Assembly: GCA_002706765.1 (NCBI GenBank)
Contig: PAJV01000028.1
Location: 62,001 to 126,000, forward strand
Direction of reading: 5' to 3'
Source: Gimesia sp.
GTDB taxonomy: Bacteria > Planctomycetota > Planctomycetia > Planctomycetales > Planctomycetaceae
DNA length: 64,000 bases
A program made the position numbers and the translations under genes. Below the pieces are notes generated by a model. It ran no database searches. It was not told the origin of the DNA and saw only the letters and a program-made list of their open reading frames with translations. This document shows positions 1,440 through 64,000 of this stretch, piece after piece. Position 1 is the stretch's first letter. Each line of letters begins with the position of its first letter.

Positions 1440-2804
1440 GTGAATCCAACCAGGTCTGACTCAACATCCCAATATGCCCCCACAGAAAAATCATCCGATG
1501 ACCAGCCTGCGAGCTTGAAAGGCCAGGCAGTGCTGCCTGAGCTTTCCGCCAGCTCGGTTCTGCCTCCACCTCAATCGGGGGCAACTGCCTTTGACCGCTG
1601 GCTGATGCGGACCATGCTGAAGCAGGCGGGGAATCCGGAAATCGAGGTTGTTTTATGGGATCAGTCGGTGATCAGCACTTCCCCTGTCCCTCCCCGGTCG
1701 CGTGCCGTGATTCACAATCGCAGTACACTCTATAAGATGCTGATCGATCCCAGCCTGTATTTTGGAGATGGCTATTCTCAAGGGCAGATCGATGTGGAAG
1801 GGGGACTGGTTACTTTCAATGAAGCCATTGATCAATGCACGCATGTCGTTGATACCAAGCATTTTTATCGAGACGGATTGCGAAGCGGCCTGACATGGTT
1901 GAAACGGAATACGATTGATGCCGCCCGCAGCAATATCCATCATCATTACGATATCGGGAATGCTTTTTATCAGCTCTGGCTGGATGAGCAACTGGCTTAT
2001 ACCTGTGCTTACTTTGCGGATCCAAAGATGTCTCTGGAAGAAGCACAAATCGCCAAAATGGATCATGTCTGTCGCAAGGTCGGTCTCAAAGCCGGTGATA
2101 CTGTCGTTGAGGCAGGCTGTGGCTGGGGGGCCCTGGCGATACACATGGCGAAGTATTACGGCGTCAAGGTCAGGGCATTTAATATCTCCAAAGAACAGCT
2201 GGCTTACGCGCGTGATCGAGCGCAGCAGGAAGGTCTGTCGCAGCAGGTGGAGTTTGTGGAAGACGACTGGCGAAATATTACCGGTACCTGCGATGCGTTC
2301 GTCTCTGTGGGTATGCTGGAACATGTCGGCCTGAAAAACTATCGGCGGCTGGGAGAAGTGATTTCCGGCTGTCTAAGTCCACAGGGCCGTGGTCTGATTC
2401 ATTCCATCGGCTGTAATTCGCCGCGCACACTGGACAGTTGGACGACACGCCGCATTTTTCCGGGTGCCCATGTGCCCAGCTTAAGTGAAATGATGCAGAT
2501 CTTTGAACCCCAGAAATTCTCAGTCTTGGATGTGGAAAATATTCGACTGCATTATGCGATGACACTGGAACACTGGCTGCAGCGGTATGAGCAGAATCTT
2601 GATCAGGTCAGAGAGATGTTTGACGAAAACTTTATCCGCACCTGGCGTCTGTATCTGTCTGCTTCCATTGCCGCGTTCCGTTCGGGGTCTCTGCAACTCT
2701 TTCAAGTCGTCTTTACAAACGGCAACAATAATGAAATCCCCTGGACTCGTGCAGGACTGTACGCGCAGGAACGGGGAGAGTCCAGGATTGGTGAGCAGAC
2801 GTAA
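1440..2804 (+). CDS. cfa: Cyclopropane-fatty-acyl-phospholipid synthase family methyltransferase
   Basis: A SAM-dependent methyltransferase of the CFA/mycolic acid synthase family, 454 residues. It transfers a methyl group to the double bond of an unsaturated acyl chain in membrane phospholipid. Visible signs are the SAM motif VVEAGCGWGALAIHMA at about residues 221-236, the family stretch YDIGNAFYQLWLD just before it, and the downstream VSVGMLEHVG. The N-terminal 110 residues match the extra domain of bacterial Cfa. I chose GTG 1440 because GGGAG at 1428-1432 lies 7 bases upstream; a TTG at 1422 is the alternative. The next gene starts inside its stop codon, so the two are co-translated. The product may be a cyclopropane, methyl-branched or methylene fatty acid; sequence alone does not decide. 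Confidence 0.85.
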   Translation: MNPTRSDSTSQYAPTEKSSDDQPASLKGQAVLPELSASSVLPPPQSGATAFDRWLMRTMLKQAGNPEIEVVLWDQSVISTSPVPPRSRAVIHNRSTLYKMLIDPSLYFGDGYSQGQIDVEGGLVTFNEAIDQCTHVVDTKHFYRDGLRSGLTWLKRNTIDAARSNIHHHYDIGNAFYQLWLDEQLAYTCAYFADPKMSLEEAQIAKMDHVCRKVGLKAGDTVVEAGCGWGALAIHMAKYYGVKVRAFNISKEQLAYARDRAQQEGLSQQVEFVEDDWRNITGTCDAFVSVGMLEHVGLKNYRRLGEVISGCLSPQGRGLIHSIGCNSPRTLDSWTTRRIFPGAHVPSLSEMMQIFEPQKFSVLDVENIRLHYAMTLEHWLQRYEQNLDQVREMFDENFIRTWRLYLSASIAAFRSGSLQLFQVVFTNGNNNEIPWTRAGLYAQERGESRIGEQT

Positions 2805-20351: not shown

Positions 20352-23300
20352 ATGGCCAAGCGGAATGAAAATACTCCTGAGAAAAAAAAACGCTCCTCTG
20401 CGCGCGTACCCAGACTGGAATCACTGGGTAAATATCAAATCGAAAAGGAGATCGGTGCCGGGGGAATGGGAGCCGTTTTCCTGGCCCGCGATACCACCCT
20501 GAATCGTCTGGCAGCTTTAAAAATTCTTCCGCGTGATAAAGCCGAGAACCCTGTGCTGGTGAAACGGTTCAAAGCAGAAGGACAGGCGGCTGCTCATCTG
20601 CGGCATGAGAATATTGTTTCTGTCTATGATGCCGGCGAAGAAGACGGCTATCTTTACATCGCTCTGGAGTATGTGGAAGGCACCGATCTTCATAATCTGA
20701 TCAATAAACGAAACCGCATTCCTGTCCGTCGATCACTGGAAATTATTACGCAGGTGACTGAGGCTCTGGCTCATGCATATCAACAGGGAATTGTGCACCG
20801 TGACATCAAACCTGCCAATATTCTCATTCGTCTGGATGGCGTTGTAAAGCTGACCGACCTGGGACTGGCACGTTCGATTGACGACAATACTGAAACGAGC
20901 ATTACCCGCGCAGGGACAACTGTCGGCACCGTGGATTACATGGCGCCTGAGCAGGCCCGTGACAGTAAGGCAGCTGATATTCGCAGCGACATCTATTCAC
21001 TGGGTTGCACCTGGTATCATATGTTGACCGGCCGGGCTCCCTTTTCTGAAGGAAGCCTGACGAATAAACTCGCCGCGCATGCCACCACTCCTCCGCCCGA
21101 TCCGCGGGAGCTCAATGAGCGCGTGCCCGAAGGGATTGTCGCCATCATTCATCGGATGATGGCCAAGCCACAGGCAGATCGCTACCAGACGCCCGCTGAA
21201 CTTCTGGAAGACTTGAAGAATTCGAATCTGAAACGTTCGAATCTCGGAAACGATGTTCTGGAAGCCTTGGCGAACGATGAATCAGATGGAGAACAACCTG
21301 CTCTTAACTCAGATCAACTTCCGGCGGCAGGCAGCAGTGATTTCCAGATCAATCAGTTTATGCCCGATTACAATAGTTCGGCCGCTGATCATGAAGACGA
21401 ATTAGCTGAGGATAATAATCGGCTCAGTACCAGTTTCGACCTGCAGCAACTGGCGGGAGAAGTCGATTTCGAATCTGACGTGACAGTACCGGGACTGAAG
21501 CGACCTGAGAAATCGGCCAAACCATCAAAGAACAAAAATCAACCGGAACGCAGGCGATCCTCCGCGAAACGCCAGGAACCGCTTGAAGAGGATGGTTCCG
21601 TCATCTCTGACTCTGCCATGAAAACGCGACAGGCTGCGCGCCCTGCGAAACAAGAGTCATCCTCACCTTCGACACCACGTAAAGGAACCAGGCCTGTAAG
21701 CCGGGAGAACAAAACTTCAGAAAAGCCGGGAGCCCGCAAGAGCCACAGGACCACTGCGCGTCCCACGAGAAAATCATCGAAAACAACAACGGTGACTTCG
21801 GCGGATGAGCCAGCGGCAGGAAGTCAGATTGCCGTTGACTACAGGCAGATTGCCATGCTGGCAGGTGGGGTCATTCTTCTGATTCTACTGCTCTGGTGGG
21901 GAATCAACGCCTTGGTCAGCTCTGGAGACGGGCCACAACAGGGGCCGGCCACTAACCCTTTTGCTACAGCAGAGCAGAATCGGCAGGAGAATTTACAAAA
22001 TGAAGTGGATCAGCCGGCGAATGCAGCAGCAGTTGACCAGCCAGCTGAAGAGACTTCTCAATCAGAGATTGCTGTGACGGAAGTAAAGTCGGAAGCAGAT
22101 GCATCAAAACAGAAAACCGGGTCTGCAGAATCATGGAAAAACATGCCTGGCCGGGGACAGGAAAAAGAACACTTGCCTGAATGGGGGGCAGGATTTTCTG
22201 CACTTTCAGGACCAGATGCGGGAAAGCGGATCTCTCACTTACCGGTATTTAAAGTTGTTCGCGGGAACGCCGAGAGTGATGGTGTCTGGGGTAGCTTGGA
22301 TTCGGCTCTGAATGAGGTGAATTCCCGGGGCGCTGTCATTCGTCTGTATGGCCCGGGTCCCTTTTTGCTCAATTCCCATCGATTGCGTGATATTACACAG
22401 TTAATCATCATGGCGGATTCAGATCAGCAGCCGACCATTATGATGCAGGCAAAAAACAAAGATGCCAAACAGTCTGAAGTGAACCTGTTATCATTTTCAT
22501 CTGGCTTACTCCGTTTTCAGGGAGTACATCTGCTGTGCGATGTGTCGGGACTGTCAGGCTCCGGCGTTTGCAATGTCCTGAATTTAGATCAAAGTGATCT
22601 TACATTCCAGGATTGCTCTTTCACACTGGCCGGGACTACGGACAGAGTACTTCGACTGGTCAATTCTACGGGAGCGCCACGTACCACAACGGGACGCGCC
22701 GCAGGAGAGTCCCGTATCTTTCTGGAAAACTCCGTGATCATGGGGCAAAATCTGGAAGCGGTGCGTGTCGATCAGCTGTATGTGGATGTCCTGCTCTCGA
22801 ACTGCTTTCTCTCATCACGGGGGGCACCCTGCCTGGAATTCGGCAGCCTGGATAAGGCAATGAGCCCCGGGCTGGTTTTACAGGAACGAAAAATTCCGCG
22901 CACCGCTCGAATCTTTTCCAGTACCCTGCTCTCCGATCAGACCATCTTCGCATTAACAGGACCGCAGGAAGAAAAAAAATCGGGAAAGTCCGATCAGGAA
23001 ATTCTTGCCAGTGGTGAGACGGATCTGATCGTCATCAATTCCGTTTTGATTGGAAGTCGGAAAAATAAACAGGCAGCAATGCTGACTCTCCATGACTGGC
23101 CTCAGGATAAACTGCGAAATCAGAGTGCCAGTCGATTCGATGAGATCAATGTAAAACTGGAAAACGCACTCCTCTGGGGGTGGCCGTCTTATCTCCGCTC
23201 TACGGAACAGGGAGATCCCCAAAAAGTTTTTCAAATCGATTCGCATCGAACCTGGCAGCAGAGTTGGGGAAATCATGTCGCTGCTGACATGTTTCAATCA

Positions 23301-61880: not shown

Positions 61881-62354
61881 ATGACTGAAGCTAGCTCTAA
61901 TCTTATTCCGAGGAGTCTTTTTTATTCATACGCTCACGAAGATGAAGAACTGCGTATAGAGTTGAATAAACATCTTTCGTTACTGAGAAATCAGGGGATT
62001 ATCAGTGATTGGAATGATCGGATGATTCTTGGTGGTGAGGAATGGGAAGACGAAATCGATGAAAATCTGGAAAAAGCTGATATCATATTGCTGTTGATCA
62101 GTTCCAGCTTCAATGCTTCTGATTATTGTTATAAAAAAGAGATGGCTCGGGCTCTAGAACGGCACAAAGCCGGTGAAGCCGTTGTAATTCCGGTCATCTT
62201 AAGAGACTGTGATTGGCACTCCGCTCCTTATGGAAAGCTTCAAGCATTACCTAAAGATGGTAAGTCAGTTACAGGATCTAGTTGGCATAGTAAAGACGAA
62301 GCATTTACCGATGTTGCCACAGGTATTCGTGCTGTTGCTTCAAAAAAAAACTAA
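61881..62354 (+). CDS. TIR domain protein, N-terminal part of an NLR-like gene
   Basis: 157 residues from ATG 61881 (AGAGG 10 bases upstream); an upstream in-frame start at 61797 is possible but adds a doubtful hydrophobic stretch. The TIR fold is complete: RSLFYSYAHEDEELRIELNK at the first strand, IISDWNDRMILGGEEWEDE, then ADIILLLISSSFNASDYCYK and KEMARALERH with the putative catalytic Glu of NADase TIRs, and IPVILRDCDWHSAPYGKLQ. The frame ends at TAA 62352-62354 directly after a run of nine A. The NB-ARC part continues in the -1 frame without its own good start. Both halves are AT-rich, unlike the genes before. Confidence 0.85.
   Translation: MTEASSNLIPRSLFYSYAHEDEELRIELNKHLSLLRNQGIISDWNDRMILGGEEWEDEIDENLEKADIILLLISSSFNASDYCYKKEMARALERHKAGEAVVIPVILRDCDWHSAPYGKLQALPKDGKSVTGSSWHSKDEAFTDVATGIRAVASKKN
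62345..62351 (+). promoter_or_regulatory. Putative -1 ribosomal frameshift site A AAA AAC
   Basis: The TIR frame reads AAA AAA AAC TAA. The heptamer A AAA AAC (62345-62351) is a canonical X XXY YYZ slippery site in the right phase, followed immediately by the zero-frame stop. A -1 slip would continue CTA AAA AAT ATT GAA into the NB-ARC frame. The -1 frame is open from 62294, so the frames overlap by 61 bases. No strong downstream hairpin is seen. The alternative is a one-base deletion or sequencing error in the nine-A run. Confidence 0.5.
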
Positions 62355-64000
62355 AAAATATTGAAGCAAGAATCTTTGAAGTTCCCTTTAGAAAAAACGC
62401 CGCCTTCACAGGTCGAGAAGAAGAATTGAAAGATCTGCGTGAGCGACTTACTTCCAATAATAAAACAGCACTTACACAAGCCATACATGGATTAGGTGGA
62501 ATTGGGAAAACACAAATTGCGGTCGAATATGCATATCGTTATCAGGAAAAATATGATTATGTATTCTGGATTCAAATGGCCGATGATACCGATGAATCTA
62601 TCCCTCACTCCTCAACTGATCCGTCACTTACGATTCTGAATAGCTATGTTGGATATTGTAATAAGCTTCAAGTCTCATTTGATGAGAACGAAGTTGAAAC
62701 GGCAAAGCACGCATTTAAGAATTGGATGGGTCTAAATAAAAACTGGTTGATGATATTTGATAATGCGGACAAACCTGATTGTCTTGAATCTTTTTTGCCG
62801 GTTCAATTTCAGGGACATGTAATTCTGACTTCGAGAGCAAATTCATTTACGCGACTCGGGATTCTAGAATCGCTTGAGATAAAAAAACTCACCCTTGATC
62901 AGGCTAATGATTTTTTAATTAAGCGAGTCTCAAGGCAGCTAAATTCGACGGAAGAAAAATATGCTAGAGCACTGGCTATAGAAATAGATGGATTACCTTT
63001 GGCTTTGGAGCAGGCGGGAGCTTATATCCAAGAAACAGCAATCACATTTAAAAGATACTTGAAACTTTATAAAAATTTGAGAATAGAACTATTGGAAGAG
63101 CAGAAACCTGTCTTGGGTGGTTATGCGAAAACAGTACAAAAAACATGGTTACTAAATTTCCAGGCAGTAGAAGATGAGTTGCCAGCTGCAGTCGAAGTTC
63201 TACGTTTCTGCTCATATTTTGCACCAGACGCTATCCCCTACAATACAATAACAGCAGGAGCTAGTTTCTTAAATAATTCGATTCAAGAGGTTCTGGAACA
63301 AGCTATTGATCCAATTCTGGGAGTTGCAAAATTATTAAAACCACTTTCAAAATATTCACTTATCAATATTGAACCTGGAGAAGAAAGATTCAGCATTCAT
63401 CGAATTGTTCAAGAGGTTATGAAAACACAGGCAAATTCGATTGAGGAAGTGAAAGAATTAGAGGAGCAGGTTATTAATGTGGTTGAGTGCATTTATCCAT
63501 GGACTGACTATGATAACAGGTCAGTCGCATTTCAATTATTTTCCCACTGTTTGATTGCTGCTGAATATGTAAATAAAAATCTGATAGTTACAAGTCGAAG
63601 TACAAGTTTATTGGGAAAATTAGGACGGTATTTTTTTTATACAGGTGCATATAAATTAGCTGAACCGCTTTATCATCAAGCCTTATTGATTTCAAATTCA
63701 TTAGTTGAAAAAGACTTGGATAAAGATGAAGCAATTGATCAAGTAGTCGTTTCGCTAAATAATCTGGCTATGCTTTATAGAAGAACACAACAATATTTTG
63801 ATGCAGAGCCATTATTCATCCAAGCGATTGATATTGTTGAAAATCAAAACGTTCCTGAGAATGATTTGATGCTAGCAAGCCTTTACAACAATCTTGCTCT
63901 GCTATACAAGGTTTGGGATCATCAAGAAAAATACAATAGAATAGAACAATTGTATTTAAAGGCTCTTGTGATTATGCGCTCGCACGATGATCAGAGTAGA
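62351..64000 (+). CDS. NB-ARC and TPR part of the NLR-like gene, -1 frame, cut by window edge
   Basis: The frame starting CTA at 62351 stays open without a stop to the window end, 550 codons. It reads FTGREEELKDLRERL, the usual start of an NB-ARC region, then Walker A GLGGIGKTQIAVEYAY near codon 50, Walker B NWLMIFDNAD near 135, an ARC-type ILTSRANSFTRLG, and the GLPLALEQAGAY motif near 220. From about codon 440 there are kinesin-light-chain-type TPRs (SLNNLAMLYRRTQQYFDAEP, SLYNNLALLYKVWDHQEKYN). Only a TTG within the GREEE segment (62426) could start it independently, and that would delete conserved residues, so it belongs to the TIR frame. STAND ATPases of this kind are sensors in bacterial antiphage defence. 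Confidence 0.82.

Follow-up and report, generated by a model that had tools for sequence, protein, structure and literature searches.

How can a single immune receptor be produced from a locus whose effector and NTPase domains are not in the same reading frame? At the end of the window (the whole 64-kb stretch of DNA analysed here, from genome G000), an open reading frame for a TIR domain runs into a second one for an NB-ARC domain and TPRs, and a single polypeptide would need recoding. The features that bear on this question are:

61881..62354, + strand: TIR open reading frame, zero frame, 157 residues plus TAA; ThsB-type TIR, start ATG at 61881
62335..62343, + strand: 5' arm of a perfect inverted repeat (9 bp) around most of the A run
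62342..62350, + strand: run of nine A (A9) at the domain junction, with C at 62351; homologues have A10 (genome G001, locus L004) and A11 (genome G008, locus L026)
62345..62351, + strand: in-phase heptamer A_AAA_AAC, by TIR-frame codon reading
62351..64000 in the window, + strand: NB-ARC/TPR frame, −1 relative to the TIR, open to 64312
62352..62354, + strand: zero-frame stop TAA, directly 3' of the heptamer
62361..62369, + strand: 3' arm of the same 9-bp inverted repeat around the A run
62405..62425, + strand: FTGREEE, conserved, start of the NB-ARC core, with no in-frame ATG, GTG or TTG ahead of it

Frames and domains of the window gene

The sequence-only reading had placed the TIR and NB-ARC parts in different frames with a shift of exactly −1, and had found no independent start for the NB-ARC frame ahead of FTGREEE. 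Both statements proved true on re-reading the sequence. The NB-ARC frame is already open from 62294, i.e. it overlaps the TIR open reading frame, and a frame scan found no ATG, GTG or TTG in it upstream of FTGREEE, the earliest candidate start being a TTG at 62426, just past that motif. The extent first given for the gene (61881–64000) was too short: in the longer contig stretch L002 the NB-ARC/TPR frame continues beyond the window to a stop at 64313–64315, so that the gene runs on to 64315, with 654 codons from 62351 to the stop and none of them interrupted.

Profile searches matched the first part to TIR_2 (PF13676, E = 4e-15, 56.8 bits against a cut-off of 28) as well as to TIR, and the second to NB-ARC (PF00931, E = 6.6e-14, 52.2 bits against a cut-off of 23.5) at about 62417–63100; downstream of the latter are TPRs (TPR_12, E = 3.4e-28), the repeats of a C-terminal sensor. 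Five NB-ARC core motif strings are found in the gene. From these matches, the locus appears to be a TIR-NB-ARC-TPR immune receptor gene, that is, a bacterial NLR with a putative antiphage role. An AlphaFold2 model of the 157-residue TIR, in which strands and helices alternate (mean pLDDT 88.4, pTM 0.84), confidently predicts that the free TIR is a complete domain.

We consider it probable that this gene is read by recoding, to give both a free TIR and a TIR-NB-ARC-TPR receptor. Most ribosomes would stop at the TAA at 62352 and release the 157-residue TIR, while a minority would shift to −1 within the A run, by RNA-polymerase slippage (an altered A run in the mRNA), by ribosomal slippage on A_AAA_AAC, or by both, and would complete the receptor. 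Activated receptors might then oligomerise, and their tethered TIRs could nucleate assembly of the surplus free TIR, amplifying NAD-type signalling or killing, such that one gene would provide adaptor and sensor. The frame arrangement is there to be read; production of both proteins, the ratio between them and their function are what we infer. The probabilities that we attach to this reading and to its rivals below are not mutually exclusive.

The junction in the window and in related genes of the genus

TIR-frame codons at the window junction read TCA AAA AAA AAC TAA, so A_AAA_AAC is indeed in phase and followed at once by the zero-frame TAA, as had been claimed. The phase itself carries no weight here, because any run of at least nine A must contain an in-phase heptamer. 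There are two A9 runs in the window (at 20382 and 62342), and at least two occurred in 40 of 100 shuffles. Thus A9 by itself is unremarkable, and what is not explained by chance is its position at the domain junction together with the identical −1 split in two other species. The other run, at 20382–20390, lies in a stretch that by eye resembles the start of a protein-kinase-like gene.

The further claim, that this is a canonical ribosomal −1 site, has the in-phase heptamer and the −1 arrangement of relatives in its favour but is less secure. A_AAA_AAC is a weak, low-efficiency shift site in E. coli, according to the available portions of PMC4066793 and PMC5009743; no significant fold was found downstream of it in the window gene (z = +0.7, with the best linker fold at z = −1.07); and the A9 could slip in RNA polymerase. 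Given the A9 without a downstream stem, RNA-polymerase slippage is about as likely as a ribosomal −1 shift. Runs of at least about nine A, as in genes with transcriptional slippage, are present in G000 (A9), G001 (A10) and G008 (A11). The proposal of a shift at the junction, by which one gene would supply free TIR as well as the fusion, is supported by the recurrence of the −1 split at A10 and A11 and by the signals of distant NLR genes described below; the ribosomal route is one candidate mechanism for it.

The inverted repeat at the window junction folds only modestly as RNA (z = −1.6; 13 of 200 shuffles equally good). The G001 gene has a perfect 11-bp inverted repeat with the A run in its loop (L004, 1462–1491; z = −6.0), the inverted repeat of G008 lies upstream of the A run and not around it, and there is none around the A run of L005, a fused gene of genome G003. 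The repeats of G000 and G001 are neither a classical downstream nor a classical upstream stimulator.

Our genus sample comprised 17 genomes, one per species. NB-ARC relatives of the window clade occur in six of them, namely G000, G001, G003 (two), G004, G008 and G015; G008 also carries a more distant NB-ARC relative (L016). The TIR of the window type is found in five TIR-NB-ARC genes, three of which are split, all −1, and two fused. In G001 the junction has A10 and reads TCA AAA AAA AAA CGA CAG CTA AAG TAG, and in G008 it has A11 and reads GAA AAA AAA AAG TAA; both are −1 splits, like that of G000 (TCA A9 C TAA). Both paralogues of G003 are single-frame, and one of them, L005, has an in-frame A9. 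The genes of G004 and G015 have a different TIR type, fused in frame to NB-ARC. Comparison with homologues recovered the A run and the −1 split in two further species, and orthologues that were all single-frame, named beforehand as evidence against the idea, were not what the genus held (three of five genes split, two fused).

Phase variation is the main rival, although we think it unlikely: replication slippage would change the A run, cells would switch between free TIR and fused receptor, and the genomes at hand would have been caught off-phase. The junction run does change in length, as the fused paralogue L005 has an in-frame A9, and this rival accommodates well the A9, A10 and A11 of homologous genes and the perfect inverted repeats that flank the run in G000 and G001. 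It fits less well with three split genes that, despite differing run lengths, are all −1 and never +1 (three cases only), and with relatives that split at short A6–A7 or C4-type motifs, which are poor indel hotspots and most of which have stems. L005, too, could shed a free or nearly free TIR, since a −1 slip at its A9 would lead to a stop roughly five codons later.

An error of sequencing or assembly in the homopolymer would be a simpler explanation, homopolymers being error-prone and several of the relatives being metagenome assemblies. We regard it as very improbable: three genomes show the same −1 relation, and the A6G and C_CCT junctions of relatives show the same arrangement with RNA structure.

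Selection and tree analyses bear on whether the NB-ARC half is still maintained. Between G000 and G001, the TIR pair has dN 0.10 and dS 0.66 (pN/pS 0.22), and the NB pair has pN 0.26, pS 0.72 and a dS of about 2.4 (pN/pS 0.36); pN/pS is at most 0.40 in each of the five NB pairs with the window gene as a member. Both halves are constrained. Their unequal depth is a sign of either recombination at the junction or a window NB half that has evolved faster, and the difference in synonymous divergence (0.66 versus about 2.4) suggests the former. On the NB tree the branch of the window gene is 0.68 long, versus 0.16 in G001, and the GC content of its NB half is 0.36, versus 0.41–0.47; this is compatible with relaxed constraint or a different origin, and the difference in depth weighs to some extent against full constraint on the sensor of G000. 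The three split genes do not form one clade on the TIR or the NB tree; the deciding forks of the TIR tree have moderate support.

The long branch and low GC would also suit a decaying pseudogene, broken at its weakest point, as would the homologue in G008 (L026/L008), whose NB-ARC is broken by an insertion with transposase-like reading frames. Decay is nonetheless an improbable account of a gene with 654 open codons and intact core motifs, whose two halves have the low pN/pS ratios given above against G001, a one-contig genome that carries the same split. What counts against recoding in the window gene, in turn, is the missing downstream stem, the weak heptamer, the indel-prone A9–A11, the long NB branch with its low GC, and the insertion in G008.

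Ten Planctomycetota TIR loci lacking an in-frame NB-ARC were entered, of which seven were read and three were missed by the motif search; none of the seven had an NB-ARC in an overlapping frame, and two of the three that were missed, L128 and L130, are identical with the split genes of G001 and G008. A first scan of genome contigs with the window gene's own NB sequence gave no match, and a plasmid tblastn search gave 95 records, every one below 60% identity.

Shift motifs and stems at effector/NTPase junctions

Beyond the genus, we looked for NB-ARC relatives across 84,980 species, taking the best 80 of 364, and added selected cyanobacterial genomes and groups as well as the window's order (19 of 170 genomes matched); a sample of the cyanobacterial phylum had a match in only two of 386 genomes. 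The 116 distinct loci first obtained, five of which begin at a stretch edge, were classed by the length of open NB frame ahead of the domain: at least 100 codons in 82 ('fused') and less in 34. Among these 34, an N-terminal open reading frame of at least 80 codons ends inside the NB frame in 14 cases, always in −1, and 19 have none; the sole +1 overlap (L053) has its break within the TIR. A further 26 loci came later, eight from RNA-element searches and 18 from the order search, and the latter comprise one −1 split (L234), one −1 overlap with its own ATG (L238) and 16 fused genes. In total, 15 of 134 NB-ARC loci from Planctomycetota, Cyanobacteria and others are split, and all 15 are −1. This count leaves outside L053, L238, L229 (−1, with a UGA-type element) and duplicates of one locus, and includes L186, where a short +1 open reading frame is also present, L179, whose NB frame has an ATG, and L177, the weakest of the set, with C_CCT four codons from the stop and no good stem (z = +0.5). 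On our own grouping the 15 fall into some seven lineages, which means that the p values assume more independence than there is.

Could these simply be pairs of separate overlapping genes, in which coupled reinitiation at a non-canonical codon gives rise to NB-ARC? Gene overlaps of the ordinary kind (ATGA, TAATG) are mostly −1 too, and for that reason the uniform direction alone is weak evidence. We nevertheless give this explanation as little credence as sequencing error. In ten of the 15 split loci, the NB frame lacks ATG, GTG and TTG ahead of the core. A GTG is the sole candidate in L099 (9 nt ahead of the core) and in L118 (6 nt ahead), and L119, L179 and L186 have an ATG or TTG farther upstream. 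In the window gene, there is no G within the 18 bases ahead of the in-frame AUU that lies 3' of the TIR stop. Finally, the zero-frame stops of the split loci are enriched for shift motifs.

An in-phase A_AAA_AAN (seven loci) or C_CCT (eight loci) lies within four codons of the zero-frame stop in 15 of 15 splits versus 21 of 998 controls, and within one codon in 13 of 15 versus five of 998, the controls being ends of stop-to-stop open reading frames of at least 150 codons, some of them spurious, in the fetched loci and the window. While C_CCT was chosen after the junctions had been inspected, with L234 as its only fresh test, the predefined A_AAA_AAN alone occurs in seven of 15 splits versus five of 998 controls. 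Examples are GCA AAA AAG TTG TAG (L094 and L099), ATA AAA AAG TAA (L064), ACC CCT TAA (L049), AAC CCT TAA (L063) and CGC CCT CGC TAG (L118). In the available text of Sharma et al. (2014, PMC4066793), A_AAA_AAG ranks among the best E. coli shift heptamers, and C_CC.U is one of six tetramers that are shift-prone in E. coli with a pseudoknot.

The split junctions also tend to fold. The linker test took the best 45-nt fold over a fixed linker region in 14 split and 82 fused loci, omitting one edge locus, 17 other short loci and two UGA loci (z = −0.5 and −0.1). Median z was −3.1 in the split loci versus +0.33 in the fused ones (Mann–Whitney p = 2e-8), and z was below −2 in eight of 14 versus three of 82. 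The predicted stem starts about 10 nt or less after the motif in L234 and in the cyanobacterial split loci except L177. In L004 and L026, the best linker fold surrounds the A run or lies ahead of it, and is not downstream of it. Taken singly, the 80-nt folds of L119, L179, L185 and L186 are non-significant (z = −1.9 to −0.7), and a 10-bp stem common to L118, L119, L185 and L186 is paired in 97.5% of cells with one covarying pair, from too few sequences for significance. Intrinsic terminators were considered as a cause of the stems and rejected, no U tract being seen after them in the printed sequences except CTTT at L049 and L063.

L234 (188–1420), from the window's own family, encodes a caspase (PF00656) and a bacterial Death-like domain (PF20690) followed by NB-ARC in −1. 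Its junction reads TAC CCT CAA TAA and continues with a spacer and a stem (z = −1.7 and −2.35 over two stretches). As it was located after C_CCT had been noted, it is an independent check of the design of C_CCT, spacer and stem. L234 is, in domain content, an apoptosome-like gene.

Recoding signals at the same place in related genes suggest one gene built for both a free effector and a full sensor, and the arrangement is best read as selected recoding. Viral contigs yielded six relatives: the NB frame is open for 173–237 codons upstream in four, and for 14 codons, with no overlapping open reading frame of 80 codons, in L257 and L258.

Known systems and a second junction type

The closest precedent is dnaX, in which likewise one gene and one junction give a short and a long product. 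According to the available text of PMC3711429, E. coli dnaX has A_AAA_AAG with a hairpin and an SD-like stimulator, and dnaX of Thermus thermophilus has transcriptional slippage on nine A. Several of the cyanobacterial relatives resemble the former, and the window gene the latter. Unlike the genes described here, dnaX encodes a DNA polymerase subunit, and its shifted product is the short one, whereas here it would be the long one. Transposases of the IS1 and IS3 families, which use −1 frameshifting, share the A_AAA_AAN heptamers and the tetramers with stimulators (PMC4066793, available portions), but belong to mobile elements rather than receptors.

Among conflict systems, the STAND/EAD systems of Planctomycetes and Cyanobacteria are alike in combining a TIR or caspase effector with an EAD or Death-like domain and a STAND NTPase, and effector copies have been proposed to join the STAND core via homotypic EADs (available portions of PMC7159879 and PMC8195603). 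In those systems another gene supplies the second copy of the effector, whereas the free effector here would be a product of the same gene. Nucleation of free TIRs by receptor TIRs would fit the homotypic principle set out in these two sources, as far as their available text goes. The main texts of both contain none of the terms frameshift, readthrough, recoding, stop codon or slippery; that of PMC3711429 has no NB-ARC, TPR, TIR or ATPase, and that of PMC10885494 no NB-ARC, NTPase or TIR. Among the matches listed in searches of openly available main texts, no report of recoding in bacterial NLRs was seen. With Thoeris, the likeness is that the window TIR fits the PADLOC ThsB model (PDLC00420, E = 8.3e-63); unlike Thoeris, this TIR would, if recoded, be joined to NB-ARC and TPRs, and no ThsA-like gene was recognised by eye among the open reading frames listed downstream to the contig end.

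Not all junctions in the survey are of the −1 type. L096 and L178 have an in-frame UGA at the N-terminal/NB-ARC junction in place of a −1 split. A pattern drawn from this junction (at most three mismatches) occurs ten times, both loci included, in eight of 42 genomes of that family, and the reversed pattern does not occur in the same 42. All ten copies lie at an in-frame UGA between an N-terminal open reading frame (53–195 aa, stop-to-stop) and an NTPase frame with no stop before the fetched stretch ends (508–509 codons); two of the ten NTPases are NACHT-like, as read from a GEPGSGKT motif. The element consists of UGA, 8 nt, a 5-bp stem with a GRGGGGCA-type loop, and ACCCC, with a possible second helix. 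In the stem, six cells are changed on both sides (none of 500 shuffles had as many), while the number of doubly changed pairs, two, is not unusual (311 of 500 shuffles); pairing in the possible second helix holds for 85% of cells, with no covariation. With a covariance model, 14 copies were retrieved from 12 of the 42 genomes searched in the order, the ten seeds among them. Three of the four new copies are at in-frame UGA junctions, so that 13 of 14 fit; the exception, L229 (about 1501–1575, reverse strand), has an element one base shorter, UAG instead of UGA, and its NTPase in −1. The fitting loci are:

L209–L218, L227, L228, L230: cyanobacterial UGA-element loci, N-terminal effector or adaptor open reading frame followed by an NB-ARC- or NACHT-type NTPase

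An Rfam search at gathering thresholds of 20 loci, the ten seed loci included, gave no matches, and a search of 23 sources, among them the window and 14 of the 15 −1 loci, did not turn up the element (L234 was outside this search). Selenocysteine at the UGA is not supported: tRNA-Sec exceeded the Rfam cut-off of 47 bits in none of 11 genomes (best 44.7), which are of unstated completeness and leave out G818, and in five of 14 control genomes. In MLV gag-pol, a viral case of stop-codon readthrough, a pseudoknot lies 8 nt after the stop, and the cyanobacterial element is alike in its UGA, 8-nt spacer, 5-bp stem and possible second helix. Unlike the viral signal, the element sits in bacterial NLR genes, and the window gene does not use it (model R1 has no match in the window).

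Taking these junctions together, we lean, with somewhat less assurance than for the window gene itself, towards recoding at the effector/NTPase junction as a general trait of NLR-type receptors in bacteria, reached by convergence. On this proposal, −1 slippage on A_AAA_AAN or C_CCT aided by a stem, slippage on extended A runs, and UGA readthrough with its dedicated RNA element would all lead to surplus free effector (TIR, caspase-Death or EAD) and a little full receptor that shares the N-terminal domain and could nucleate the free copies. If both products are made, the effector-to-sensor ratio would be set by a genetic signal and not by two genes, in parallel with the adaptor–sensor pairs of animal inflammasomes and apoptosomes. 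Annotation pipelines would probably split such genes or call them pseudogenes, and part of the bacterial NLR repertoire may therefore be overlooked.

The two junction types are found with related N-terminal domains. Identity is 57% between the TIRs of L215 (UGA type) and L049 (−1 type), and 33% between the N-terminal domains of L211 (UGA type) and L064 (−1 type). Related effectors are thus found in one arrangement but with different recoding signals.
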